IMG/VR virus record: IMGVR_UViG_3300046691_000244
Span: 1 to 24,494 of that record
Direction: 5' to 3' (one strand)
Source: a virus
DNA: 24,494 bases
A program made the translations under genes and the position numbers. A model generated the notes under the pieces. The model was given only the letters and a program-made list of their open reading frames with translations. It was not told the DNA's origin and searched no databases. Shown here piece after piece: positions 4,701 to 22,059 of the stretch (position 1 is the first letter of the stretch; every line of letters begins with the position of its first letter).

Positions 4701-4940
4701 CTAGTGGAACTCATTTATCTTCACGTCCGGCGACTCGGTCCGCACCTCATCAAGCGCGCTTTCAAGCCAGCCGCGCACGAAGTCTTCACCCTCAACGGTG
4801 CGAAGCAATTTGTACGAGATCATCAGTAGGGCGCTCAGATATGAACTGCGCTCCTCTGGCTTGAGGCGGGGTAGGATTGCCACTGCCTTGAGCGCTTCTT
4901 GAACCATGGCGCTGTCGGTGCTGTTTTCGTGGGCGCTCAT
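4701..4940 (-). CDS. Small helical hypothetical protein
   Basis: A 79-residue, mostly helical protein ([22 protein letters not shown], then a helix containing LLMISYKLL). Its start overlaps the stop of the rdgC-like gene upstream in the ATGA pattern. No known motif, membrane segment or cysteine pair is seen, and function is unknown. Its stop lies eight bases before the next gene, within the sequence that supplies that gene's ribosome site. Confidence 0.6.
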
Positions 4941-6184
4941 GCTGCCGCTCCCGCCGCTACCACGGTGTACACGCCCTGCGTGCCGGTGATCACGCCCTTG
5001 GCCGCCATCGCCTCGATCAGTCGCGCCGCGCGGTTGTAGCCGATCACCAGCGTGCGCTGCACCAGCGAGACCGATGCACGCCGCTGGGCGCGAACGATGG
5101 ACACGGCCTGGTCGTAGAGCGGATCGCTGGCGCCGCCGTCGCCGAGCGGGATGATATCTTCGTGCGGCACTACGGTCAGGCCGCGATCACGTAGGCCTTG
5201 AGCTACGCGCTCATTCAGTGACAGCACCGGGCGCTGCTCACGCACTGGCTCGTTGCCCTTGGCTGGTTCCGCTGGCCGCGCCACAGGCGCTTCGCCCTCG
5301 CACGCGCCACCCAGCGCCTCCACCACGTCGGCCAGCATCTTGGCCAACTCGCCGGTCATCAGCATGAAGTCGCCGTCGAAGCGCTCGTCGTCGTTGCGGG
5401 TGCTCGCCTCGGTTTCCTTCAGCACATCCAGCGGCTTGATCGACTTGATGGCCAGCGACTCGTCCAGAACGAAGGAAATCTTCGACTCCCAGGTCATGGC
5501 CAGGCGCGTGCACTGCTTGCCGGCGGCGATGTGGCGGCGCAGTTCGTCCGCTTCCAGCGTGTGGCGCACGTACTTGACCTGGGCTTTGCTCTCGCCGGTG
5601 GCGCGCATGGTCACATCGCGGTCGATCGTGAAGCCGGCGGGCGCCTCGTCCGATTGCAGCCATTCAGTCATCACGCCCACCGGCGGGCGCTGCACGCGCA
5701 GGCTTTCCAGCGGCATGCGGTCGACCGCTTTGAGCAGCAGCTTGATTACTTCGTCGGCCTTCGAGGGGCTGGCGGCGTCAACGACCAACCAGCCGTGCAC
5801 AGGGTCGATCCAGACGTTGGTGGTACTGGCGACACTGAACGCGCGCGGCAGCAACTCGTCGGCGACGCGCTCACGCAGTTCCTTCATAGCCTTCTTGCTG
5901 GGCGCGAAACCCTGCGCCTCTTCCATCTCTGCGGCGCGGGCCTTGGCCACCTGGTTGATGACGGTGGCAGGAAGCAGCTTCTTTTCGGACTGCAGTTGGA
6001 TGAGCCACTGGCCATTGACGACGTGAACCAGGTCGGCGCCGCGCGGTGCGGCCCAGCCCTGGCGCAGCAGCTCGTTGCTGCTGGCGGGCGTGAAGGCATG
6101 GGGTGCCAGCGCGGTCATCATCTGCTCGGCCGTGAATGCCCAGCCAGCGGGCAGGCAGTAAATTTGTGCGTTTTTGAAGAACAT
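4937..6184 (-). CDS. rdgC: RdgC-like recombination-associated protein fused to an FtsK-gamma-like winged helix
   Basis: A 415-residue protein whose first ~293 residues read as RdgC: it begins MFFKNAQIY, and has the [43 protein letters not shown] and [12 protein letters not shown] family segments. RdgC forms a ring on double-stranded DNA and limits RecA; this is known for the family. Ordinary RdgC is about 300 residues. Here a Pro/Ala linker (roughly 294-320) leads to residues 353-402, containing [18 protein letters not shown], then [19 protein letters not shown], which closely matches the FtsK gamma domain, the DNA-reading winged helix that in FtsK recognises KOPS and contacts XerD. The start has GGGAGA eight bases upstream, just after the reverse-transcriptase stop. 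The gamma assignment is by motif recognition only. Confidence 0.85.
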
Positions 6185-6187
6185 CGT

Positions 6188-7128
6188 CTATCTCCCTGTA
6201 TTGGTGGGGCCGGTATGGCTGAACATTGCTTTGTAGGAGGTGAGCGCCTGGCTGCGGTCGTAGCCGCCCACCTCATGCTGGCGCAGGCGCTGGTGGTACC
6301 GGCGCCGGCCGTAGGCGCCCACGGAGATATGGTTTGGCCAGACGATGTAGCCGAGGAAGGGCACGCCGTCGGCCACCGGCGCCACGCGCACCTTTTTCGG
6401 GTGGATGGTCAGGCCATCTGCAGCGAGTCGCTCAACGATCGCGGCACTGATCGCCATCAGCTGCTCGCGGGATTCGCCCAGGATCACCATGTCATCCACG
6501 TATCGGACGTAGTGGCGGACGTGCAGCACTTCCTTCAGCCAGTGGTCGAAATCGTTCATGTAGACGTTCGCGAAGAGCTGACTGGGTAGATTCCCAATAG
6601 GCATTCCTTTGTCGCGGGTGCGCCGGTACAGACTCGTGGCCGGGAACAGGTGGTCATGCTCATCGCCTGAACGGAACGAATCCACCAGGTTCACCAGCAG
6701 AGTGCGGATGTCCTGGTCGCCGATGTAGCGCAGGATCCGCGCCTTCAAGAGCGAGTGATTCACCGAATAGAAATACTTCGAAATGTCCAGCTGCAACACC
6801 CACTTAGCATCCCGCGCGCGGGCAAAGTCAGCAAGTTGCCGTAGGTGTCCGCGATGAAGCGGGGCTGCCAGATCGGCAGCATGTAGTCGTAGAGCATCCA
6901 GTGCACGATCCGATCCTTCATCGGCGCGTCGACGACATGCCTGAATTTCTTCTCGCGGATGACGAACGTCTTGTACGGCCCGAAGGTGTAGCGGCGCTCG
7001 CGCAGCTGCTGCTGGATGCTGGCCACGTAGCGTAGCGGATCGTCGCCGAAGCGCTGCACGCGTGGGCACTTGGACTTGTTTTTCCGCGCTTTAAGCCAGC
7101 AGCCGAACAGGCGGGACAGGTCGGTCAT
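6188..7128 (-). pseudogene. DGR reverse transcriptase, disrupted by a deletion/frameshift
   Basis: Two minus-strand frames together encode one DGR-type reverse transcriptase. The N-terminal part begins at 7128 (MTDLSRLFGCWLKARKN) and runs through GPYKTFVIREKKFRHV and PRFIADTYGN. The C-terminal part continues in another frame with LADFARARDAKWVLQLDISKYF (the first catalytic Asp), PIGNLPSQLFAN (the DGR-type motif 4), YVRYVDDMVIL (YxDD box) and PFLGYIVW, and stops at 6188. The change of frame is at 6835-6841. Functional DGR enzymes have about a dozen more residues here, including a GKGTH motif, which are absent, so both the frame and a conserved loop are lost. A seven-base CGGCAAC at the junction would fit a deletion between short direct repeats (inference). 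An assembly error is less likely, because residues are missing as well as the frame. Confidence 0.85.
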
Positions 7129-7298
7129 GCGATGGAACGGTGCTGGCGCTGGGCCGCTTTCCGCTGCGGCACTCGGAAGCCCCGCAGCGGTTTTCGGTTT
7201 GGCGCAGCGCCGTGCTTTCGGGTTTATCCCAGGAGCTGATCGACCAAGAATTGGCTTTCCGTGAGCAGGCTCAGCGTCTAAGCATGTAATTTTTGGGT
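7129..7298 (-). ncRNA. Spacer between TR and RT, probable 3' part of the DGR template RNA
   Basis: This 170-base stretch lies between the template repeat and the RT start and has no convincing gene. In the Bordetella phage DGR the RNA segment 3' of TR, before the RT gene, is essential for priming and cDNA synthesis; the same layout here makes this the likely equivalent. A GC-rich inverted repeat, CTGCGG...CCGCAG around 7160-7185, could form part of a structured RNA. The function is inferred from position. Confidence 0.5.
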
Positions 7299-7413
7299 CA
7301 GCGGAAGCCGACATTGTCGTTGGCGTTGGACGGATTCGCGTTGTTGAGCCTGAACACGCCGGCGTCGTCGCCGTCGTTCCAGTAGCCGCCGCGGATGAGC
7401 GCATTGCCGGACC
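7299..7413 (-). repeat. DGR template repeat (TR)
   Basis: A 115-bp non-coding repeat between the accessory gene and the RT gene. Read on the minus strand it is full of AAC/AAT codons at the sites that vary (TGG AAC GAC; CTC AAC AAC GCG AAT; TCC AAC GCC AAC GAC AAT), as expected of a DGR template. It matches VR1 at 99 of 115 positions and VR2 at 101 of 115, without gaps. All mismatches are at the 23 sense-strand adenines of the TR. The invariant block at its 3' end, GTCGGCTTCCGCTG, corresponds to the IMH region of the VRs; immediately beyond it the TR diverges from them. Confidence 0.95.
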
Positions 7414-7436
7414 TACCAGACCACCCCCTTCGTTGA

Positions 7437-8291
7437 TCATGATGCTGCCTTTCCGGCGCGCAGCAGGCCGCCGACCAGGCGACCAAGCTCAACGGCTAAG
7501 CCAGCGCGGTGGTCGAATGCAAGTTTGAGCTTGCTTAGCCGTGGGGCCTGGGTCAGATAGTGTTTGAGAAGGTCGATGTCGGCCGAGATGGCATGCAGCA
7601 CGGCGCGGCGGTCCGCAGCCGTCCCGTAGGCGTACACGTTGCCCATGACCCGAGCCATACACGCACGCACGTTCTCGCCAAAGGTGACGCGCAGGTCGCG
7701 CGGCATCTTGATGATGTCGTGCAGCAGCTGCGTGTCCAGGTCCTGGGCTTGCGTCTTCAGCTTGAAGCCGGCGCTGTCGGGGTTGGCCAGCAGTTGTTTC
7801 GTTGCAGTCTGGTTGACCTCGCCGCGAGCGCGCAGGTCTGCAATTACCTGCTGAACGATCTTGTCGGAGACCGCATTAAGGACCGAAGCATTGGCGCCGG
7901 CCTGGTCGGAAACGTAAAGCGTGTAGCCTTCGGCACGGCTGCCGAGGTAGACAACGTACGGGATCTGGAATTCCTCCACCATGGACCACAGCCGCTTTTT
8001 GAAATTCCCGGCGGGGAAACCCACGCGAATGTGCGGCGCGTCGCTGGTATTGACCAGTCTCAGCTGATAGTTTTTGAGGGTGTTGAGTGCGTGCGCCGTG
8101 CGGTCGTAGCCGTGCAGGAAGCGGCCGACTTGCACCAGTACGAGGTGTCCAGGATGCTTCTGTTCCAACTGGGCCGAGACGTCGGCCATCGGATCTTCCT
8201 GACCGAGACCGACCTCGATTCCACGATATGCGCGAATCGAGAACTGGCCCATCTCGGCCTGTGTCGGTACTTGCGATTCGGATTTCGGCAT
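7437..8291 (-). CDS. DGR accessory protein: MutS-N-like domain joined to an Avd-like helical bundle
   Basis: A 284-residue protein between the target gene and TR, in the place of avd in the Bordetella phage DGR. Residues ~45-120 (HPGHLVLVQVGRFLHGYDRTAHAL, then RVGFPAGNFKKRLWSMVEEFQIPYVVYL) resemble the mismatch-recognition N-terminal domain of MutS, a type reported in DGR accessory proteins as 'MutS-like'. Residues ~185-280 (LLHDIIKMPRDLRVTFGENV, ...HAISADIDLLKHYLTQAPRL..., LAVELGRLVGGLLR) are helical, basic and patterned like Avd, which in Bordetella is a four-helix-bundle pentamer that binds RT and the template RNA. The ATG at 8291 has AGGA seven bases upstream. The frame is intact, in contrast to the RT. 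The two-domain reading is by motif recognition and should be checked by structure prediction. Confidence 0.75.
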   Translation of the reverse strand: MPKSESQVPTQAEMGQFSIRAYRGIEVGLGQEDPMADVSAQLEQKHPGHLVLVQVGRFLHGYDRTAHALNTLKNYQLRLVNTSDAPHIRVGFPAGNFKKRLWSMVEEFQIPYVVYLGSRAEGYTLYVSDQAGANASVLNAVSDKIVQQVIADLRARGEVNQTATKQLLANPDSAGFKLKTQAQDLDTQLLHDIIKMPRDLRVTFGENVRACMARVMGNVYAYGTAADRRAVLHAISADIDLLKHYLTQAPRLSKLKLAFDHRAGLAVELGRLVGGLLRAGKAAS

Positions 8292-8320
8292 TTTCGTCCT
8301 GCCTATTCAGTGTTGAGAGG

Positions 8321-8347
8321 CCCGGTCACCGCTGCGCAGTGACCGGG
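8321..8347. other. GC-rich hairpin downstream of VR1 (DGR target-recognition type)
   Basis: CCCGGTCAC and GTGACCGGG form a perfect nine-base-pair stem, extendable to twelve with one wobble, around a GCA triloop. It lies 25 bases after the stop codon of the VR1 target gene. In the Bordetella phage DGR a hairpin/cruciform just after VR enhances retrohoming. There is no T-run after it, so it is not a typical intrinsic terminator. Confidence 0.7.
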
Positions 8348-8356
8348 AACCAGTGT

Positions 8357-8387
8357 CCTGTGACCAGAGACCTACAGGGTTTTGGTG
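8357..8387 (-). other. Conserved 31-bp flank at the 3' end of VR1
   Basis: These 31 bases match 10489-10519 beside VR2 at 30 of 31 positions. They cover the last four codons, the stop and the bases after it. The TR does not share them, so they are not copied from TR and are presumably kept because the target site needs them (the IMH side of homing) or through gene duplication. Confidence 0.7.
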
Positions 8388-9142
8388 CAGCGGAAGCCGA
8401 CAGAGCCGTAGGCGAAGGACGGACGCGCGTAGAGGAGCCTGAACACGCCGGCGTCGCCGCCGTCGTACCAGCAGCCGCCGCGGAAGAGCGCAATGCCGGA
8501 CCAGCCGCTTCCGGCGCGCGGCCGCCAACCCATGCCGCGCTCCATGGAGGCATACGGCGCAGTGGCGATCGATGGTGAGTCGGCAGCAAAGGCCTGCGTG
8601 GTCAGACCGTTGGCGTCACCTTGGACATCGTCGAAGACCCAGGTTTCGGCGTTGCCGGCGGCATCCATCACAGCTTCGCCGTTAGACAAGTAGAAGGTAC
8701 GACGTTCGGAAGGATCGCTCGACACGAAGTCGCCGGCATACGGCTCGTTGACGTCGTCCAGGTCGAGGTGCAGGCCTTGGTACATGTTGCCTTCGCCGAC
8801 CGTGCCGCTAATCCAGTTCGCATCCTGCTGGAACAGGTTGAACGCCAGGGCCAGCGCTTGCGTCTCGGTGATCAGCGAGAAGCCCTCGTCGGCGCAGGCC
8901 TTACGCGCATCGGCGTAGTTGATACCGACCCATGGCTTGCCGGTGGCGCTCACGACGGCTTTGCCGTTCGCGCCCTTCGAGCACAGGTACTGGCCGACTT
9001 GGAACGCTGGCACGACGATGCTTGGACGGGCGATGATGCCGTCGACGATCACGCAGGGCAGCGTGGTCTCGGGCACGGTGACGAAGAGGTTTTGCTCGAC
9101 TGCTGCTACTGCGTGCTGCTCGGTGTGGGTGGTGGTGTTCAT
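8372..9142 (-). CDS. DGR target protein 1 (C-type-lectin/FGE-sulfatase-like fold, variable C-terminus)
   Basis: The start at 9142 (MNTTTHTEQHA) is preferred to 9178 because AGGAG lies five bases before it; the protein has 256 residues. It has the pattern of DGR variable proteins with the formylglycine-generating-enzyme version of the C-type lectin fold: FVTVPETTLP near the start, KPWVGINYADARKAC, then NAETWVFDDVQGDANGL, and the hallmark RGGCW...GVFRL...GSVGFRC at the end. The final ~39 residues (214-252) are encoded by VR1; diversified positions include Ile, Phe, Cys, Tyr and Gly in the RGGCWYDGGD area and Leu-Tyr, Arg, Phe, Tyr-Gly-Ser further on. No signal peptide or membrane segment is present, so it is probably cytoplasmic or virion-borne. 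The ligand is unknown. A parent fold with FGE activity is not implied. Confidence 0.9.
   Translation of the reverse strand: MNTTTHTEQHAVAAVEQNLFVTVPETTLPCVIVDGIIARPSIVVPAFQVGQYLCSKGANGKAVVSATGKPWVGINYADARKACADEGFSLITETQALALAFNLFQQDANWISGTVGEGNMYQGLHLDLDDVNEPYAGDFVSSDPSERRTFYLSNGEAVMDAAGNAETWVFDDVQGDANGLTTQAFAADSPSIATAPYASMERGMGWRPRAGSGWSGIALFRGGCWYDGGDAGVFRLLYARPSFAYGSVGFRCTKTL
8388..8502 (-). repeat. DGR variable repeat 1 (VR1)
   Basis: A 115-bp copy of the TR at the 3' end of target gene 1. It differs from the TR at 16 sites, every one an adenine in the sense-strand TR, while all 92 non-adenine positions are unchanged. Replacement bases include T, G and C. Seven template adenines remain unchanged. 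This is the adenine-specific signature of mutagenic retrohoming. Confidence 0.95.
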
Positions 9143-9174
9143 GATGCTCCTAAGTTTTTTTTGGGGTATGAACT

Positions 9175-9263
9175 TCATTTGATGCTGGTAATGCGACTGT
9201 CCTGGTGCACCTTGTACCCGGCGCGTGTCAGGGTGGCTTGTCCGTGTAATGCACTCGGATCAT
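9175..9263 (-). pseudogene. Possible tiny frameshifted ORF
   Basis: An ATG at 9263 overlaps the preceding stop (ATGA) and has AAGGAG seven bases upstream, yet the frame stops after 11 codons (MIRVHYTDKPP). Continuing in the -1 frame after the CCC gives LTRAGYKVHQDSRITSIK and stops at 9175. The whole could be a 29-residue peptide disrupted by an indel, or the short frame could be a coupling leader for target gene 1. Weak case. Confidence 0.25.
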
Positions 9264-9463
9264 TTCGGCTCCTTCGACCTCGGCGCCCGGCGCGCGTCAG
9301 CCAGCATGCGGTCGGCGACAGCCTGCAACCGGTCGCGGTCCTCAGCTGCTGATTCGTTGGCGCGGAAACTCTTGCTGGACCGCAGGCGCGACCTCGTTTG
9401 GCACTGGCGCGCCGCAGCTCGATCCAAGCGTGCCAGTCGTTGTTCCTCGGTTTCGGTTTGCAT
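9260..9463 (-). CDS. Small charged helical protein
   Basis: A 67-residue protein, almost entirely charged and helical (ETEEQRLARLDRAAARQCQ; AAEDRDRLQAVADRMLADARR). GGAGG precedes the ATG. It overlaps the 3' half of the competing frame 9342-9569 by 122 bases, so one of the two may be shorter than drawn or not real. Function unknown. Confidence 0.5.
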   Translation of the reverse strand: MQTETEEQRLARLDRAAARQCQTRSRLRSSKSFRANESAAEDRDRLQAVADRMLADARRAPRSKEPK

Positions 9464-9569
9464 GCACCCTCCGCAGCAATTTAGCGGCCCGCGCGGTGGC
9501 GCTGGCCAGTCGGATTGAATGACTGAATGTGTGGCCGGCGCGCCAGGTGCGCCAGGCTGAGCGGATCAC
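9342..9569 (-). CDS. Possible small basic phage protein
   Basis: A GTG at 9569 overlaps the TGA of the preceding gene (GTGA), the same coupling used elsewhere in this operon. The first ~35 residues (VIRSAWRTWRAGHTFSHSIR) look like a genuine short phage protein; the C-terminal half is low in pattern and lies antagonistically in frame over the 9260-9463 gene. Possibly the original stop was lost. Function unknown. Confidence 0.4.
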   Translation of the reverse strand: MIRSAWRTWRAGHTFSHSIRLASATARAAKLLRRVHANRNRGTTTGTLGSSCGAPVPNEVAPAVQQEFPRQRISS

Positions 9570-9709
9570 GGATGCCATACCGCGCTCACTTCCTGCAGGG
9601 CGGCTAGCACCTGCTGCTGCGCTTCGTCATCGCTGCGCGCGGCGTCGATATAGAACAGGCCCAGGAGGCTAAAAGCGGTGAGGGCACGGATCCATGGACG
9701 CCAACTCAT
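9566..9709 (-). CDS. 47-residue protein with N-terminal signal anchor
   Basis: The start at 9709 (MSWRPWIRALTAFSLLGLFY) overlaps the TGA of the gene before it (ATGA). Two arginines precede a hydrophobic segment of about 14 residues, then a polar tail (DDEAQQQVLAALQEV). It is probably a single-pass inner-membrane or exported peptide. It forms a pair with the membrane protein immediately upstream. Function unknown. Confidence 0.5.
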   Translation of the reverse strand: MSWRPWIRALTAFSLLGLFYIDAARSDDEAQQQVLAALQEVSAVWHP

Positions 9710-9849
9710 GGCAAACTCGCTACTGCGGCGCCGGCCACATCGGCCAGCCATTCAGCCAGCGCGACCAGCATCACCATGACCACAACCAGCGCGCCGCCGT
9801 TACGCTCGCACCAGCCGCCCGGCGCGCCGAAGAGGACACGCGCGTTCAC
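9706..9849 (-). CDS. 47-residue single-pass membrane protein
   Basis: This short frame begins with GTG at 9849, which overlaps the TGA of the upstream gene (GTGA), and ends in an ATGA overlap with the next. After a short N-terminus with CERNGG it has one strong hydrophobic stretch, ALVVVMVMLVALAEWLADV, then a small-residue tail. It is an inner-membrane protein by prediction. No lysis-gene hallmark is visible, and its early-operon position argues against a holin. Confidence 0.5.
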   Translation of the reverse strand: MNARVLFGAPGGWCERNGGALVVVMVMLVALAEWLADVAGAAVASLP

Positions 9850-10061
9850 GCCGCAACTCCCGGCCGCGCTGCCAACTGCATAGCACCGCAGCGAAAGTGA
9901 TCATCGGCCTGCACGGCGCCAGCCGGCATGTAGTCCGGCGCGTCCAGCGTGCCACTCATCAGAGAACCGAGCAGGCCGCTGTCCTGATAGGCGTAATCCA
10001 GGTGGTCGTAGACCCGTTGCTGTGCGATGCGGCCGCCGGTGGCGAGGATGATCGATTTCAC
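9846..10061 (-). CDS. Small hypothetical phage protein
   Basis: A 71-residue protein starting with GTG at 10061 in a GTGA overlap with the preceding stop. It begins with a beta-like segment (KSIILATGGRIAQQRVYDHLD) and continues with a Gly/Ala/Pro-rich region. No motif is recognised. Its position among coupled small genes is the main support. Confidence 0.5.
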   Translation of the reverse strand: MKSIILATGGRIAQQRVYDHLDYAYQDSGLLGSLMSGTLDAPDYMPAGAVQADDHFRCGAMQLAARPGVAA

Positions 10062-10246
10062 AGGGCACCTGCTGTGACCAGGACCGCGCGGCGCTCGTTG
10101 GCGCGAACCATGCCATCAGGCGAAATACCCTCGACCTCCAGCTTCGCGGCGACGACTGTTTTCTGCTTCAGCGTCATAGCGTTGAGCATCACGCTGATGA
10201 TGCGGTCCGCCTTACGCAGCTCTTCGATCACGACTGTTGCGTCCAT
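10058..10246 (-). CDS. Small helical phage protein
   Basis: A 62-residue protein with a good ribosome site (GGAG six bases before the ATG at 10246). The sequence is one long helix (VIEELRKADRIISVMLNAMT) followed by a short beta-like part (GMVRANERRAVLV). Its stop is coupled to the next GTG start. The family is not recognised. Confidence 0.55.
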   Translation of the reverse strand: MDATVVIEELRKADRIISVMLNAMTLKQKTVVAAKLEVEGISPDGMVRANERRAVLVTAGAL

Positions 10247-10288
10247 CTCGATCTCCTGGTGAATAGCGCCGGGTGGCTCCGGCGGTTG

Positions 10289-10438
10289 CTAACGCGAACG
10301 AACGGTGGGCGTGCCTATCAGGCCCCAGCCCAGCTGGCGGCGAACTTCTTCGGGCGACGGTGGTGGCAAGCGGGACAGCGAGCGCTGCTTACCCCAGATG
10401 CGGACTTGCTCTTTGGTTGGGTGAGTGACTGTTGCCAT
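10289..10438 (-). CDS. 49-residue basic phage protein (RRQLGW type)
   Basis: A short frame starting at 10438 with GGAG seven bases upstream. The product, MATVTHPTKEQVRIWG... LPPPSPEEVRRQLGWGLI, resembles a recurrent family of tiny phage proteins with a Pro-rich middle and an (I/V)RR(E/Q)LGW segment. It sits directly after target gene 2 and its downstream hairpin, which shows the operon continues past VR2. Function unknown. Confidence 0.6.
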   Translation of the reverse strand: MATVTHPTKEQVRIWGKQRSLSRLPPPSPEEVRRQLGWGLIGTPTVRSR

Positions 10439-10455
10439 GACTATCTCCAATTAAT

Positions 10456-10476
10456 GGCCGCCGCTACGCGGTGGCC
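10456..10476. other. GC-rich hairpin downstream of VR2 (DGR target-recognition type)
   Basis: GGCCGCCGC and GCGGTGGCC pair around a TAC triloop: nine base pairs with one central G-T wobble on the plus strand. It lies 27 bases after the VR2 target stop, almost the same distance as the VR1 hairpin. Its stem sequence is unrelated to that of VR1, so the structure rather than the sequence is conserved. There is no T-run. Confidence 0.65.
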
Positions 10477-10503
10477 TGATACCCGCGACCTGTGACCAGA
10501 GAC

Positions 10504-11406
10504 CTACAGGGGTTTGGTGCAGCGGAAGCCGACACCGTCGTCGGCGCTGGACGGAAACGCGCCGCCGAGCCTGAACACGCCGGCGCCGTCGCCGTCGCTC
10601 CAGTAGCCGCCGCGGATGAGCGCACGGCCGGACCAGTCGCGGGCCCCGTCGGGCCGGTAGCCCATGCCGTTCACGCAGGAAGGGTAGGGCGCCATGATCA
10701 GGGATGGCGAGTCGTCAGCGATGCGGGTGCACAGGCCATTGCTGTCCCCTTGGACGTCGTCGTAGACCGCGGTATAGATGTTGCCGGCCAGGCCGTAGAC
10801 CTTTTCGCCGTTGGCCAGCACGTGCCAGCTGCGTTCTTCTGGGTCGTCGCTCACGTAGTCAGCCGCTTGCGCGCTGCGCACCGTGCCTTTGTGCAGGCCC
10901 TGGAACACTTTGCCCATGCCGACGGCGCCGCCGGTCCAGTTCTCGGCCTGCTGTACCACCTGCAGGCGGATGGCCAATTCCTGCGACTCGCGCGCCAACT
11001 GATAGCCGGCCGCCGCGCACGCAGCTGCAGCGTCGTTGAAGCTGACGTTCACCCACGGTTTCGACGAAGCGCTCAGCTGCAGCGCGCCGCTATCATCTTT
11101 CGACGCAGGGTACTTGGCGTACTTGAAGGCGGGCACGATGCGACCATTCGGCAGCGTCGTCTCGGCCACGGTGACGAAATGCTCTTCGGCCACCAGCCCG
11201 AGGCTGGACATCAGCGAGGGCGATCCGGACACGACGCGCCGCTCGGCGTCGAGAACGATCAGGTGCAGGCCGGAAGCGGAGTGGCGGAACTTCGTGAAGC
11301 CCTCCCATGCGCTTTCAACGGCCAAGCCGGTGATATTGCGGTCATGCAGGCGCGCGGTGAAGGTGCGCTCCTCGATCAGTTCCAGTGCTGCTGCGGATTG
11401 GTTCAT
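10504..11406 (-). CDS. DGR target protein 2 (C-type-lectin/FGE-sulfatase-like fold, variable C-terminus)
   Basis: The start at 11406 (MNQSAAALELIEERTF) has GGAG six bases upstream; an upstream ATG at 11418 lacks a site. The protein has 300 residues. From about residue 75 it parallels target protein 1 (HFVTVAETTLPNGRIVPAF; KPWVNVSFNDAAAACAAAGY; AVYDDVQGDSNGL; DWSGRALIRGGYW; DGVGFRCTKPL). It has an extra N-terminal domain of ~70 residues (ESAWEGFTKFRHSASGLHLIVLDAERRVVSG) absent from protein 1. VR2 encodes residues ~258-296. Diversified residues include Arg, Ser, Gly-Gly, Phe, Ser, Asp and Gly, where the template has Asn. No signal peptide. It is the second gene of the leftward operon, ~9 kb from any visible structural gene. 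Ligand unknown. Confidence 0.9.
   Translation of the reverse strand: MNQSAAALELIEERTFTARLHDRNITGLAVESAWEGFTKFRHSASGLHLIVLDAERRVVSGSPSLMSSLGLVAEEHFVTVAETTLPNGRIVPAFKYAKYPASKDDSGALQLSASSKPWVNVSFNDAAAACAAAGYQLARESQELAIRLQVVQQAENWTGGAVGMGKVFQGLHKGTVRSAQAADYVSDDPEERSWHVLANGEKVYGLAGNIYTAVYDDVQGDSNGLCTRIADDSPSLIMAPYPSCVNGMGYRPDGARDWSGRALIRGGYWSDGDGAGVFRLGGAFPSSADDGVGFRCTKPL
10520..10634 (-). repeat. DGR variable repeat 2 (VR2)
   Basis: A 115-bp copy of the TR at the 3' end of target gene 2. It differs from TR at 14 sites, all adenines of the sense-strand template; the 92 other positions are unchanged. The set of altered adenines differs from VR1 and many shared sites carry different bases, so the two VRs were mutagenised in separate events. 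Confidence 0.95.
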
Positions 11407-11417
11407 CGTGAACTCCA

Positions 11418-11735
11418 TCAGTGAGGGGCTTTGATTTCGTTGGCAGCCACCAGCGCCGCGGTCGCGTAATTCGCGATCCGCTTGTGCTGAGCCGTGGATG
11501 CGATGTGCTTCATGGCGAACACCATGTCCTCGTAGTTGTTGACGGCGCGGACGATGAGATCACCGGCGTTGACGCCCGCTGCCTGGCTCTTGTCCTTGCG
11601 CGCAGCTGTGACACTTACGCCCTGGTCAATGCCGAACAACTGACCGAAGGCGTTGCCGCTGCCGTCAACCAGCAGGGTAGCGTTGCTTCCGTCTGTGAGA
11701 CCGAGGCGGATCGGCAGGTCGAGGGCGGTTTTCAT
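11418..11735 (-). CDS. First gene of the leftward operon, hypothetical phage protein
   Basis: The start at 11735 (MKTALDLPIRLGLTDGSN) is chosen over 11783 because GGAG lies six bases before it and the longer frame would begin inside the operator/promoter. The 105-residue protein has a beta-rich N-terminus (ATLLVDGSGNAFGQLFGI) and a helical C-terminus (DMVFAMKHIASTAQHKRIANYATAALVAANE). I recognise the C-terminal pattern as common in phage early proteins of unknown role. As first gene after the repressed promoter it is expected early in lytic growth. Confidence 0.65.
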   Translation of the reverse strand: MKTALDLPIRLGLTDGSNATLLVDGSGNAFGQLFGIDQGVSVTAARKDKSQAAGVNAGDLIVRAVNNYEDMVFAMKHIASTAQHKRIANYATAALVAANEIKAPH

Positions 11736-12444: not shown

Positions 12445-12666
12445 ATGACAGATGAGGAGCGGTGGATCGCAGCATGGCGCGCGATGGATGATGACTGCAG
12501 GAGTGATAATCTCGTTGCAATGGAGGGTCAGGCCAGGGCATTCCCGAGAAAATCGCCGGCGAAATTAACTCTTGTTCGCGCCGGCAGCGCCCTTAATGGA
12601 GGGCTTCAAGTCCTTGATATATTGCATGACCCTGCGCCGCCGCCCAATATCCAAATCGTAAAATAA
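12445..12666 (+). CDS. Small hypothetical protein, convergent with the repressor gene
   Basis: A 73-residue protein starting MTDEERWIAAWRAMDDDC, with GAGG seven bases before the ATG and a promoter-like element with palindrome just upstream. Its last 34 codons lie antisense over the end of the repressor gene (102-base overlap), so the C-terminus may be constrained by that gene or the frame may originally have ended earlier. The family is not recognised. Rightward transcription here would also make antisense RNA to the repressor. Confidence 0.45.
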   Translation: MTDEERWIAAWRAMDDDCRSDNLVAMEGQARAFPRKSPAKLTLVRAGSALNGGLQVLDILHDPAPPPNIQIVK

Positions 12667-12948
12667 GCCAAGCAACGCAAAAGCCTCGGAGTCCATCCAG
12701 GGCGGCGGACTGGCGGGTGATGGCGCCATCACTTTACTTGCACCCTCGTCCAAATCCTCTTGAGAACCTATAGGCGTATCCAAATACCCAGTCCCCATTT
12801 TGTAATCATCCTCAAGACGCCTGGCGACCTTTTCTCCGAAGGATGCGGTGCCCTTCAGCTGAGAAAACAAGCTTTTCTCCTTGGTAGGGACGCCATGTGT
12901 GGCTACCCATTTTTCTAGGTTCTTACGGCGAATGTCGATTATGTCCAT
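12565..12948 (-). CDS. Short CI-like phage repressor (HTH only)
   Basis: A 127-residue protein whose N-terminus (RRKNLEKWVATHGVPTKEK, SLFSQLKGTASFGEKVARRLEDDY) is the helix-turn-helix of a common phage CI-type repressor. Such repressors usually continue into an S24/LexA-type peptidase domain of ~120 residues; here only a Pro/Ser linker and a short helical tail (FALLGLFYDLDIGRRRRVMQYI) follow, the latter typical of HTH-only phage regulators. It lies opposite the cro-like gene, between paired operators, and is its expected antagonist. No ribosome site precedes the ATG; a TAAACT -10-like hexamer ends six bases before it, suggesting a leaderless message. Without a self-cleavage domain, induction by RecA-stimulated autocleavage is not expected. 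Confidence 0.8.
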   Translation of the reverse strand: MDIIDIRRKNLEKWVATHGVPTKEKSLFSQLKGTASFGEKVARRLEDDYKMGTGYLDTPIGSQEDLDEGASKVMAPSPASPPPWMDSEAFALLGLFYDLDIGRRRRVMQYIKDLKPSIKGAAGANKS

Positions 12949-12956
12949 GACGCGAG

Positions 12957-13012
12957 TTTAGTATTTTCTAAAGAAGTATTCACTTGACAGTCGGTTTAGC
13001 ATTCACTAAACT
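12957..13012 (+). promoter_or_regulatory. Rightward early promoter and two repressor operators
   Basis: TTGACA (12984-12989) and TAAACT (13007-13012) with a 17-base spacer form a good sigma-70 promoter whose start point would fall at about 13019, the A of the cro ATG. Two perfect operators, TTTAGTATTTTCTAAA (12957-12972) and TTTAGCATTCACTAAA (12995-13010), cover respectively the likely repressor-promoter -10 on the minus strand and the rightward -10. Arms TTTAG and CTAAA with a six-base AT-rich centre are the same as at 11772-11787. Confidence 0.8.
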
Positions 13013-13018
13013 CGCTGC

Positions 13019-13276
13019 ATGGACCTCAAAACCTACATCTCCGGTGAGCGCGGACGCGCCAAAGCCCTGGCCGCGAAAATCGGCATATCCCCGTCATTCC
13101 TGTCGCAAATTGCACGCGGAACAGCGCCGGCTTCGCCGCGCCGTTGTGTCGATATCGAGGTTGCTACCGATGGCCAGGTCACCCGGAGAGACATGCGCGA
13201 CGACTGGCGAGATATCTGGCCCGAAGCGCAACCCGCATCCACCGCCAACATAGCACCAGCCGAGCCGTCTGGCTAA
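13019..13276 (+). CDS. Cro/YdaS-type helix-turn-helix regulator
   Basis: An 85-residue protein that begins MDLKTYISGERGRAKALAAKI and continues GISPSFLSQIARGTAP...RRCVDIEVATDGQVTRRDMRDDW..IWPE. This is the YdaS/Cro-like family, a short HTH whose recognition helix is in SPSFLSQIARG. In phages it sits divergent from the CI repressor and shuts it off during lytic growth. The start is firm because the family begins at this Met. No Shine-Dalgarno sequence precedes it, and the predicted transcription start is at the ATG itself, so translation is probably leaderless. Confidence 0.9.
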   Translation: MDLKTYISGERGRAKALAAKIGISPSFLSQIARGTAPASPRRCVDIEVATDGQVTRRDMRDDWRDIWPEAQPASTANIAPAEPSG

Positions 13277-20917: not shown

Positions 20918-22059
20918 GCAACACGCCGCAACTCGAAGACGGTTTCACGATGCTGGCCAACGAGCTCATGGAGAGCGTCCTTGGCTTTGGGTTTTCGCAT
21001 CGTGAGCAGTCGATCGTGTTCACTATATTTCGGAAGACGTACGGGTACGGGAAGAAGGAGGACGACATGTCAGCCTCGCAGATCGGCGCGATGTGCGGCA
21101 TCACGCGTCAGCATGTCACCACGACGCTGAACCTGCTGGCACTGCGCAACGTGATCAACAAACGGCCTGGCCGCTTTGGGTCGATCATCAGTATTCAAAA
21201 GGACCATCGTAAATGGATCACTGCCGAGCAGATGAGGGCCTTGCCGACTAGTCCCGAATCGGGACAGGTGGATAGTCCTGAATTGGGACAAGTAGGCGAG
21301 GGTGGCGATTTGCCGGCTGACGCTGCGCTAGTCCCGAATAAGGACACCTGTCCCGAATTGGGACTAGTCCCGAATAAGGACGCCACTAGTCCCGAATCAG
21401 GACAGGTCGATAGTCCCGAATCGGGACACACAAAAGAAAACCTTCCAAAAGAAAACCACCAAAAGAAAACATCTTGCGCTCCGCAAGCGGAACGCGATTC
21501 GGTTGACGACCTACCAGCAGGCAAGAAACAACGCCGGGCCATGACGGGTGCCAACCAGGAATTGCAAGACCGTTTTGATCGCTTCTACGCAGCTTATCCG
21601 CGCAAGAAGTCGCGCCTTGCGGCCGAGAAGGCCTTCGCGAAACTGAACCCTGACGAGCAGCTAATGGCGGCGATCCTTGTCGGCCTGGAGCGGGCCATGA
21701 AATCGGGCGACTGGCGCAAAGGCTTCATCCCGCACCCGGCCAGCTGGATCAACAACGGAGGATGGATGGACGAGATCCAGACCGCCTATAGCGACGAGGA
21801 GCTTGCTGTGATCCAGCTCTTCAACGACGTCCTGGGTGGTCAGCTTGGCACCGTCTCTGAGGTGCTGTTCGATGCTCAACGTGCCGCGGCGATACGCGAC
21901 TTCATGACTTTCTCGGATAAGCCCGACTTCATTGCTCGCGTCTTCCCCTGGGTCCTGAAAAATGCAGATCTGCCGCCGCACGTGGGCTTCGACTGGCTGA
22001 TCAGCCGGGTGGGCTTCGACAAGGCCACCGGCGGCCAACACACGAGGAAAGCAGCGTGA
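20914..22059 (+). CDS. O: Phage replication initiator, lambda O-like, with the origin inside the gene
   Basis: A 381-residue protein. Residues ~1-100 (EDGFTMLANELMESVLGFGFSHREQSIVFTI, then RKTYGYGKKEDDMSASQIGAM, TRQHVTTTLNLLALRNVI) form the phage O N-terminal domain, a winged helix that binds origin iterons. Residues ~113-170 are unusually repetitive (SPESGQ, SPELGQ, VPNKD) because the DNA there is an iteron array. After an AT-rich stretch, the C-terminal domain carries DRFYAAYPRKKSRLAAEKAFAKL and FIPHPASWINNGGW, as in initiators that load the helicase. The dnaB-like gene follows with a four-base overlap, the classical O-helicase arrangement. The protein would bind the origin and recruit the helicase. 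Confidence 0.85.
   Translation: MSNTPQLEDGFTMLANELMESVLGFGFSHREQSIVFTIFRKTYGYGKKEDDMSASQIGAMCGITRQHVTTTLNLLALRNVINKRPGRFGSIISIQKDHRKWITAEQMRALPTSPESGQVDSPELGQVGEGGDLPADAALVPNKDTCPELGLVPNKDATSPESGQVDSPESGHTKENLPKENHQKKTSCAPQAERDSVDDLPAGKKQRRAMTGANQELQDRFDRFYAAYPRKKSRLAAEKAFAKLNPDEQLMAAILVGLERAMKSGDWRKGFIPHPASWINNGGWMDEIQTAYSDEELAVIQLFNDVLGGQLGTVSEVLFDAQRAAAIRDFMTFSDKPDFIARVFPWVLKNADLPPHVGFDWLISRVGFDKATGGQHTRKAA
21251..21427 (+). repeat. Seven origin iterons (GTCCCGAATNNGGAC)
   Basis: Seven 15-bp near-palindromic copies begin at 21251, 21275, 21331, 21350, 21367, 21389 and 21413. The first and last are GTCCCGAATCGGGAC; the others differ by one to three bases and always keep GTCC.GAAT..GGAC. 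Most spacings are 17-24 bp, with one 56-bp gap. They lie inside the initiator gene, as the lambda iterons lie in gene O. Confidence 0.9.
21428..21476 (+). other. A-rich unwinding region of the origin with three CAAAAGAAAAC repeats
   Basis: Directly after the last iteron, CAAAAGAAAAC occurs three times at 21431, 21446 and 21460 (14-15 bp period). All purines are on one strand and GC content falls sharply. Such a strand-biased A-rich stretch beside iterons is the expected DNA-unwinding element. Confidence 0.85.

Follow-up and report, generated by a model that had tools for sequence, protein, structure and literature searches.

Every diversity-generating retroelement (DGR) must draw two products, a reverse transcriptase (RT) and a template RNA, from a single locus, and these two uses have to be balanced. 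How this is done is the question raised by a DGR analyzed here in a linear viral fragment of 24,494 bp (IMG/VR record IMGVR_UViG_3300046691_000244; the whole stretch is called the window below), where the template repeat (TR) lies inside the open reading frame (ORF) of the RT. The element is a genuine phage DGR with one template and two targets, arranged along the minus strand in the order target 2, target 1, accessory gene, TR and RT. We propose that the RT and its partner, a MutS-Avd protein, copy the TR RNA into adenine-mutated cDNA (the enzymology would be that of BPP-1), which would replace the variable repeat (VR1 or VR2) that closes each of two genes for lectin-like targets at the 3' end. 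In this lineage the RT would lack a separate ribosome site downstream of the TR. Translation would restart at an ATG overlapping the stop codon of the accessory gene and go through the TR and a structured spacer into the RT, one stretch of RNA being message and template or scaffold at once. The likely gain would be that accessory protein and RT are expressed in a coupled manner; in addition, the RT-Avd complex and ribosomes may compete for the same RNA. A 37-bp deletion would later have disabled the RT of the window. To this explanation as a whole we give a probability of roughly 0.83; the translation itself, its coupling and the competition we infer from sequence.

Adenine-only differences between template and variable repeats

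The TR (7298..7414, minus strand; 7299-7413 in an earlier, sequence-only reading of this DNA) aligned without gaps over 115 bp with VR1 (8388..8502, minus) and VR2 (10520..10634, minus). Counting the outermost bases at which a template A acts as wildcard, the repeat is 117 bp long (7298-7414). The single TR and two VRs were recovered by re-alignment where that reading had placed them. On the sense (minus) strand, from 7413 to 7299, the TR contains 23 A, 17 T, 40 C and 35 G. VR1 was altered at 16/23 template adenines (nine A>T, four A>G and three A>C) and VR2 at 14/23 (11 A>G, two A>T and one A>C), with no change at the other 92 bases in either case. The chance of such an A-only pattern is 1.6e-14 for VR1 and 2.3e-12 for VR2 (jointly ~4e-26). 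The mismatches were thus confined to adenines, as had been claimed (30/30), and the independent mutagenesis proposed for the two VRs is upheld by the different adenines hit and the different bases chosen.

A scan for TR/VR pairs, in which template A was treated as a wildcard, gave 49 A-only pairs in 30 close relatives, most of them over a full repeat of 115-120 bp and only a few shorter than the whole repeat (in L014, L020, L022, L026 and L036), and three more in distant DGRs. Non-adenine substitutions were sought in these alleles; the 49 pairs of the 30 loci have ~890 changes at template adenines. Three VRs are served by one TR in L006. No further VR was found in the 24,494-bp record of the window, which is a linear fragment, so that VRs beyond its ends are possible. 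When the window is compared with its three nearest relatives, differences occur in the VRs at 44–76% of template-A sites and at 0/91 other sites, and in the part of these genes that precedes the VR at 5–18%. The non-A sites of the repeat have therefore stayed unchanged while the flanking gene sequence diverged, a comparison that shows, at the level of sequence, that TR-to-VR copying went on after the phages separated.

Some peculiarities of the repeats may be mentioned here. Changes in the TR were few; by one of them the TR of the window is an adenine short of those of L005-L007 (GACGAC vs. GACAAC). When TR/VR pairs of the window and L005-L039 were taken together, A-to-C was nearly absent at template AC and AG (1%) and reached 21% at AA. 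This trend is the reverse of that at NAC in BPP-1, where misincorporation of G is raised (PMC12875486), and the RT of the window's lineage may have a different error spectrum. In L032 (4506-6763) there is a tandem duplication, running VR, accessory gene, an unmutated TR body with a VR-type 3' end, accessory gene and TR, that has the appearance of a TR-VR crossover.

An open frame through template and spacer

Protein scans provided 35 viral loci with a related RT, and the accessory protein was found in six bacterial-genome loci, two from Duganella, two from metagenome bins and one each from Solimicrobium and Pseudothauera. Nearly all relatives have retained the cassette of target(s), accessory gene, TR and RT. 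In the window the TGA of the accessory gene overlaps the ATG of the RT-frame ORF (ATGA, 7437..7440, minus strand, with GGAAAGG before it), and the leader that follows, i.e., TR and spacer in the RT frame (7129..7440, minus), was free of stops in every coupled relative. Among the first 38 loci the overlap was present in 38/38 and the distance from the accessory stop to the RT core was 296–323 nt, always 2 mod 3, with 0 stops in 3,873 RT-frame codons vs. 77 in each other frame. When the set was taken to 63 distinct loci ATGA was found in 62, and the 52 coupled loci, those in which the ATGA ORF goes in frame into the RT, had 0 stops in 5,573 codons vs. 108 and 108 in the other frames.

A parsimony test meant for the kinship of the loci was also carried out, with substitutions placed on a tree and the expected creation of stops taken from each descendant's own codon context. 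When the spacer was tested (60 loci), stop-creating changes numbered 0 vs. ~20 expected in the leader frame (P ~1e-9), and 29 vs. 27 and 21–22 vs. 28 in the other frames. Over TR and spacer together (49 loci) the values were 0 vs. 24.5 in the leader frame, and 39 vs. 56 and 36 vs. 41 in the others. The ratio of nonsynonymous to synonymous changes (N/S) in the leader was 0.99 of expectation in the same test. Judged by these substitutions, the open frame of the leader is under selection and its amino acids are not, and the leader peptide is therefore probably a by-product.

The same stretch carries a predicted RNA structure. The spacer between TR and RT core (7129..7297, minus) shows covarying secondary structure in RNAalifold, with two-sided changes in 19/40 predicted pairs (33 loci), and found no match in Rfam. 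In the covariation model the 3' end of the TR, TGACC (7296..7300, minus), is predicted to pair with the nearly invariant GGTCG of the spacer at 7241-7245, and a covarying stem-loop, CCGCTGCGG...CCGCAGCGG, lies at 7161..7190 (minus). By this covariation the structure of the spacer is under selection. The pairing of TR end and spacer is like that of the BPP-1 spacer, which recruits the RT-Avd complex (PMC12875486).

Frame changes and inserted genes among relatives

Several loci are natural experiments on the relation between leader and RT. L128 and L147 have spacers lengthened by ~240 in-frame nt; their RT frame is open over 548 and 557 nt, with small ORFs in the other frames. In eight loci (L134, L135, L144, L151, L212, L219, L242, and L247) the distance is 1 mod 3, and the ATGA ORF passes TR and spacer and goes in frame into a different gene located between spacer and RT, stopping 1–4 nt over an ATG sited 18 nt before the RT core. 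Five of the eight inserted proteins were recognized by Pfam (D12 methylase, PAPS reductase, N6_N4 methylase, Dam and H-NS). These cargo genes enter just after the scaffold RNA and in this way mark its 3' limit. In L245 ATGA is absent and the RT has an ATG. Altogether, an ATG of its own was found for the RT in 9/9 uncoupled loci vs. 11/52 coupled ones (Fisher 1e-5).

As a control set we used 57 BPP-1-like loci (L047-L109; 47 distinct). Here the RT starts at an ATG in 55/57, its frame relation varies (37, 11, and 9 loci) and 18 loci have stops in the RT frame; the coupled start is therefore not a general DGR feature. In the distant DGR group L156-L192 the TR abuts the RT start and stops in the TR fail to discriminate frames. 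An unexpected side observation in the BPP-1-like loci concerned the avd -1 frame, which is for the most part open across the TR and reaches the RT in frame in 28/47 distinct loci. In 9/10 of the loci with a shift of 1, the end of this frame overlaps the RT ATG by exactly 1 or 4 nt. The 2 mod 3 group had 4 stop-creating changes in the RT frame vs. 19.5 expected, and no conserved start for the avd -1 frame was apparent in these loci. Translation of a leader that covers the TR and ends at the RT start may extend beyond the window's lineage to BPP-1-like DGRs, which we offer as a lead and not as a claim.

What translation through the TR would be for can be read in two ways. It might serve only against Rho-dependent polarity, with no competition between ribosomes and reverse transcription, a reading that we regard as possible at rather less than even odds. 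Some 300 untranslated nt between the accessory gene and the RT would be a polarity risk in a proteobacterium, the leader ORF is retained whichever gene comes next, and, as seen above, it also ends at the RT ATG in nearly all frame-shifted BPP-1-like loci. On the other side, a translating ribosome would have to disrupt the scaffold at least briefly, because the spacer structure overlaps the coding stretch. The wider proposal, that throughout the lineage template and scaffold are coding sequence and that translation vs. reverse transcription sets the mutation rate as a built-in switch, whether RT or a cargo enzyme is made, is advanced tentatively. With the template translated as RT leader, the balance between the two uses would be testable by single stop-codon or frameshift changes.

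The broken reverse transcriptase of the window

The RT ORF of the window today comprises the leader and the N-terminal part of the RT (226 aa, 6760..7440, minus; PHROG reverse transcriptase, E 2.4e-25) and is cut off early by a frameshift. The C-terminal part, with YVDD and GMPIGNLPSQ, lies out of frame (6188..6832, minus; RVT_1, E 4.1e-21). Alignment to relatives located the junction of a 37-bp deletion at 6827..6840 (minus), which takes out the motif RGTHAAVRR and shifts the frame. Intact relatives have RT ORFs mostly of 424–450 aa, and in 32/32 close relatives having both halves these are in one frame. A programmed frameshift rescuing the RT was excluded, 37 bp with a conserved motif being lost and all these relatives being in frame. 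Among solved structures, the RT of an intact relative came closest to the BPP-1 DGR RT (E 3.9e-36), a match to RT-linked DGRs that agrees with the sequence-only reading. That reading had taken the element for a DGR working by mutagenic retrohoming. Its TR-to-VR copying stands by sequence; the RT of the window copy is broken by the deletion. By its sequence this copy is probably dead, a DGR by descent.

With the RT broken, either the VRs predate the deletion or an RT acting in trans wrote them, unless the break is a fault of the assembly. No drift was found over 184 non-A VR sites, bounding divergence since the last homing at ~1.6%. An assembly or sequencing fault in an active element is somewhat unlikely in our judgment. 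It would fit this absence of drift, the intact appearance of accessory gene, targets and both VRs, and the fact that the junction occurs in no other IMG/VR contig. The deletion is, on the other hand, a clean one of 37 bp with no homopolymer slip, and DGRs with a dead RT but an intact TR/VR are on record (PMC3521204). In L132, a relative, the N-terminal part of the RT is also broken by a frameshift, and dead RTs may be common in this group.

Start of translation and nature of the leader

Could the RT instead have a separate start codon downstream of the spacer, as is the case in BPP-1, the open frame in the TR being incidental to high GC and to the constraints of VR coding and RNA folding? We consider this improbable, although several observations weigh against translation from ATGA and have to be set beside it. 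The spacer has no codon-position or N/S signal, which leaves openness, frame-preserving indels and start signals as the only evidence of translation, and selection on the amino acids of the leader is absent. Past the spacer, members of the window's subclade carry an ATG in frame (7128) with no Shine-Dalgarno core, and an internal start is possible there; this position of the RT core is ATG in the 11/52 coupled loci already counted. The stretch from the TR end to RT+30 nt holds an in-frame ATG in 25/49 coupled loci and GTG or TTG in 15 more. The loci are also related and their raw counts overstate independence, for which the parsimony test is a partial remedy. Lastly, BPP-1-like RTs do use their own ATG almost throughout.

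What stands against a separate start is, in the first place, the complete lack of stop-creating changes where 20–25 were expected. The Shine-Dalgarno core was found before ATGA in 53/63 loci and before the RT core in 0/52 (background 6%). The codon aligned with Met7128 of the window is CTA, CTC, CTT or TTA, Leu codons that cannot start, in 18/52 loci, and CTG in 17/52. Indels compensate each other, the frame being held even over the long spacers of L128 and L147, and an ATG of its own turns up in the RT once the frame is uncoupled. Translation from ATGA, if right, corrects the annotation of the RT start.

A function for the leader as a protein domain within the RT seems very improbable. If the translation proposed here holds, the leader is always translated, fused to the RT or to other proteins, but these partners are unrelated, the leader stretch has no family match, and its N/S, given above, does not depart from expectation. 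A conserved protein was likewise excluded for the leader by that ratio and by the lack of codon-position bias. The idea that TR and VRs are ordinary gene duplicates diverging under selection can be dismissed, since the two targets are indeed paralogous (50% identity overall) but the changes are exclusively at adenines, similar rates at non-adenines were tested for and not seen, the repeat's non-A identity is held while the remaining gene sequence diverges, and a DGR RT and Avd adjoin the repeats.

Accessory and target proteins

The accessory protein (284 aa, 7437..8291, minus) is, by profiles and structural modeling, a fusion of MutS domain I at the N-terminus with an Avd four-helix bundle at the C-terminus. 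Profile matches were to NCBIfam DivGenRetAVD (E 6.8e-7, below cut-off), Pfam bAvd (weak) and MutS_I (E 0.21). In Foldseek searches with an AlphaFold2 (AF2) model built from 32 relatives, the N-terminal half matched MutS 1nne (E 9.6e-4; mismatch-recognition domain I) and the C-terminal half the DGR Avd structures 8ub7_E (TMt 0.81) and 4dwl_D (TMt 0.78). A role in handling mismatches may be suspected, a mismatch-recognition domain being tied here to a machine that must install mismatched DNA. P1/P7 Res was considered as a relative of the accessory protein and judged unrelated, as it gave only weak matches in the annotated phage collection.

Target 2 (304 aa, 10504..11418, minus) has a C-terminal variable region and a fold like that of formylglycine-generating enzyme (FGE) or C-type lectins (weak Pfam FGE-sulfatase match, E 0.0095). 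Target 1 (268 aa, 8372..9178, minus) belongs to the same family (PHROG sulfatase-modifying-factor family), and its relatives suggest a start at the ATG of MNTTT, giving 256 aa. The AF2 model of the target, in which the VR loop has low confidence, is similar in fold (E 0.003–0.02) to FGE, to TaqVP (5vf4), which is the variable protein of a Thermus DGR, and to Mtd (1yu1-1yu4), and both targets may be proteins of a binding type. In both targets the VR ends ≤16 nt from the stop codon. The difference between initiation-of-mutagenic-homing sequences (IMH and IMH*) is present, VRs ending in CGCTGCAC and TRs in CGCTGACC (pairs shown). Hairpins follow at ~41 nt downstream of VR1 (8323..8345, CGGTCACTG / CGGTGACCG) and ~42 nt downstream of VR2 (10456..10476; 9-nt stem with one mismatch, loop GTA). 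A stem of ~9 bp was found 27–42 nt downstream of the VR in 45/46 VRs of the family, by a search that alone is lax (31% background), position and sequence being conserved nonetheless. A hairpin after the VR is required in BPP-1 (PMC3240598), and the loops of the window family are unlike the GRNA loops of Guo et al. (PMC3240598).

Phage context

Outside the DGR the window has genes for a repressor-like protein, a methyltransferase, a PAPS reductase, an O-like replication-initiation protein and a DnaB-like helicase, and would therefore be part of a temperate-type phage, judging from this gene content. An rdgC gene fused to an FtsK gamma domain (4937..6184, minus) is a neighbor outside the DGR proper, and about half of the relatives have RdgC at a distance of no more than a few kb from the DGR. 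The cassette of the Duganella sp. BJB476 genome (L040) is located between a repressor and an integrase gene, and the genes downstream of its RT (DUF5131 and DNA-repair-like) overlap by 4 nt. A second, distant RT (32% identity) is present on the opposite strand of the same phage contig in L016 (10869-11348, minus). The O-like gene of the window contains related direct and inverted copies of ACTAGTCCCGAATCGGGACAGGTG at 21246-21428, probably origin iterons, and an inverted repeat at 12943-13024, whose 30-nt arms are 80% complementary, immediately precedes the repressor-like gene (12565-12948) and is probably an operator region.

Comparison with known systems

The BPP-1 DGR (mtd-avd-TR-brt) has the same gene order, strand and adenine-only signature as the window. 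Its RT is the nearest to that of the window's lineage among solved structures, its Avd is matched through 4dwl and 8ub7, and both elements have a spacer RNA with pairing between TR end and spacer and a hairpin after the VR. Unlike BPP-1, the window has two targets and an Avd fused to MutS domain I, and in its lineage the cassette is located in the rdgC/repressor region, whereas that of BPP-1 is beside tail genes. MutS-like accessory proteins (MSL, PF01624) have already been recorded for DGRs (PMC10053308) and likewise bring MutS domain I into a DGR accessory gene; in the window this domain is fused to a recognizable Avd bundle.

The main difference concerns the start of the RT. In BPP-1-type elements TR and spacer lie outside the RT ORF, which has its own start, whereas in the window family the RT would be read from ATGA through the TR. 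Selection for translation through the TR seems unreported, no account of it having been found in open-access papers (most subscription papers were outside the search). The closest precedent is DiGReF group 3 (2012), in which the TR overlaps the 5' end of the annotated RT ORF (PMC3521204), and the window family likewise has its TR inside the RT ORF. There the overlap was taken as an annotation feature, the arrangement was judged irrelevant and the RNAs of RT and TR were thought to be probably separate (PMC3521204). In the window family, by contrast, the overlap appears to be selected for an open frame and is accompanied by a conserved coupled start.

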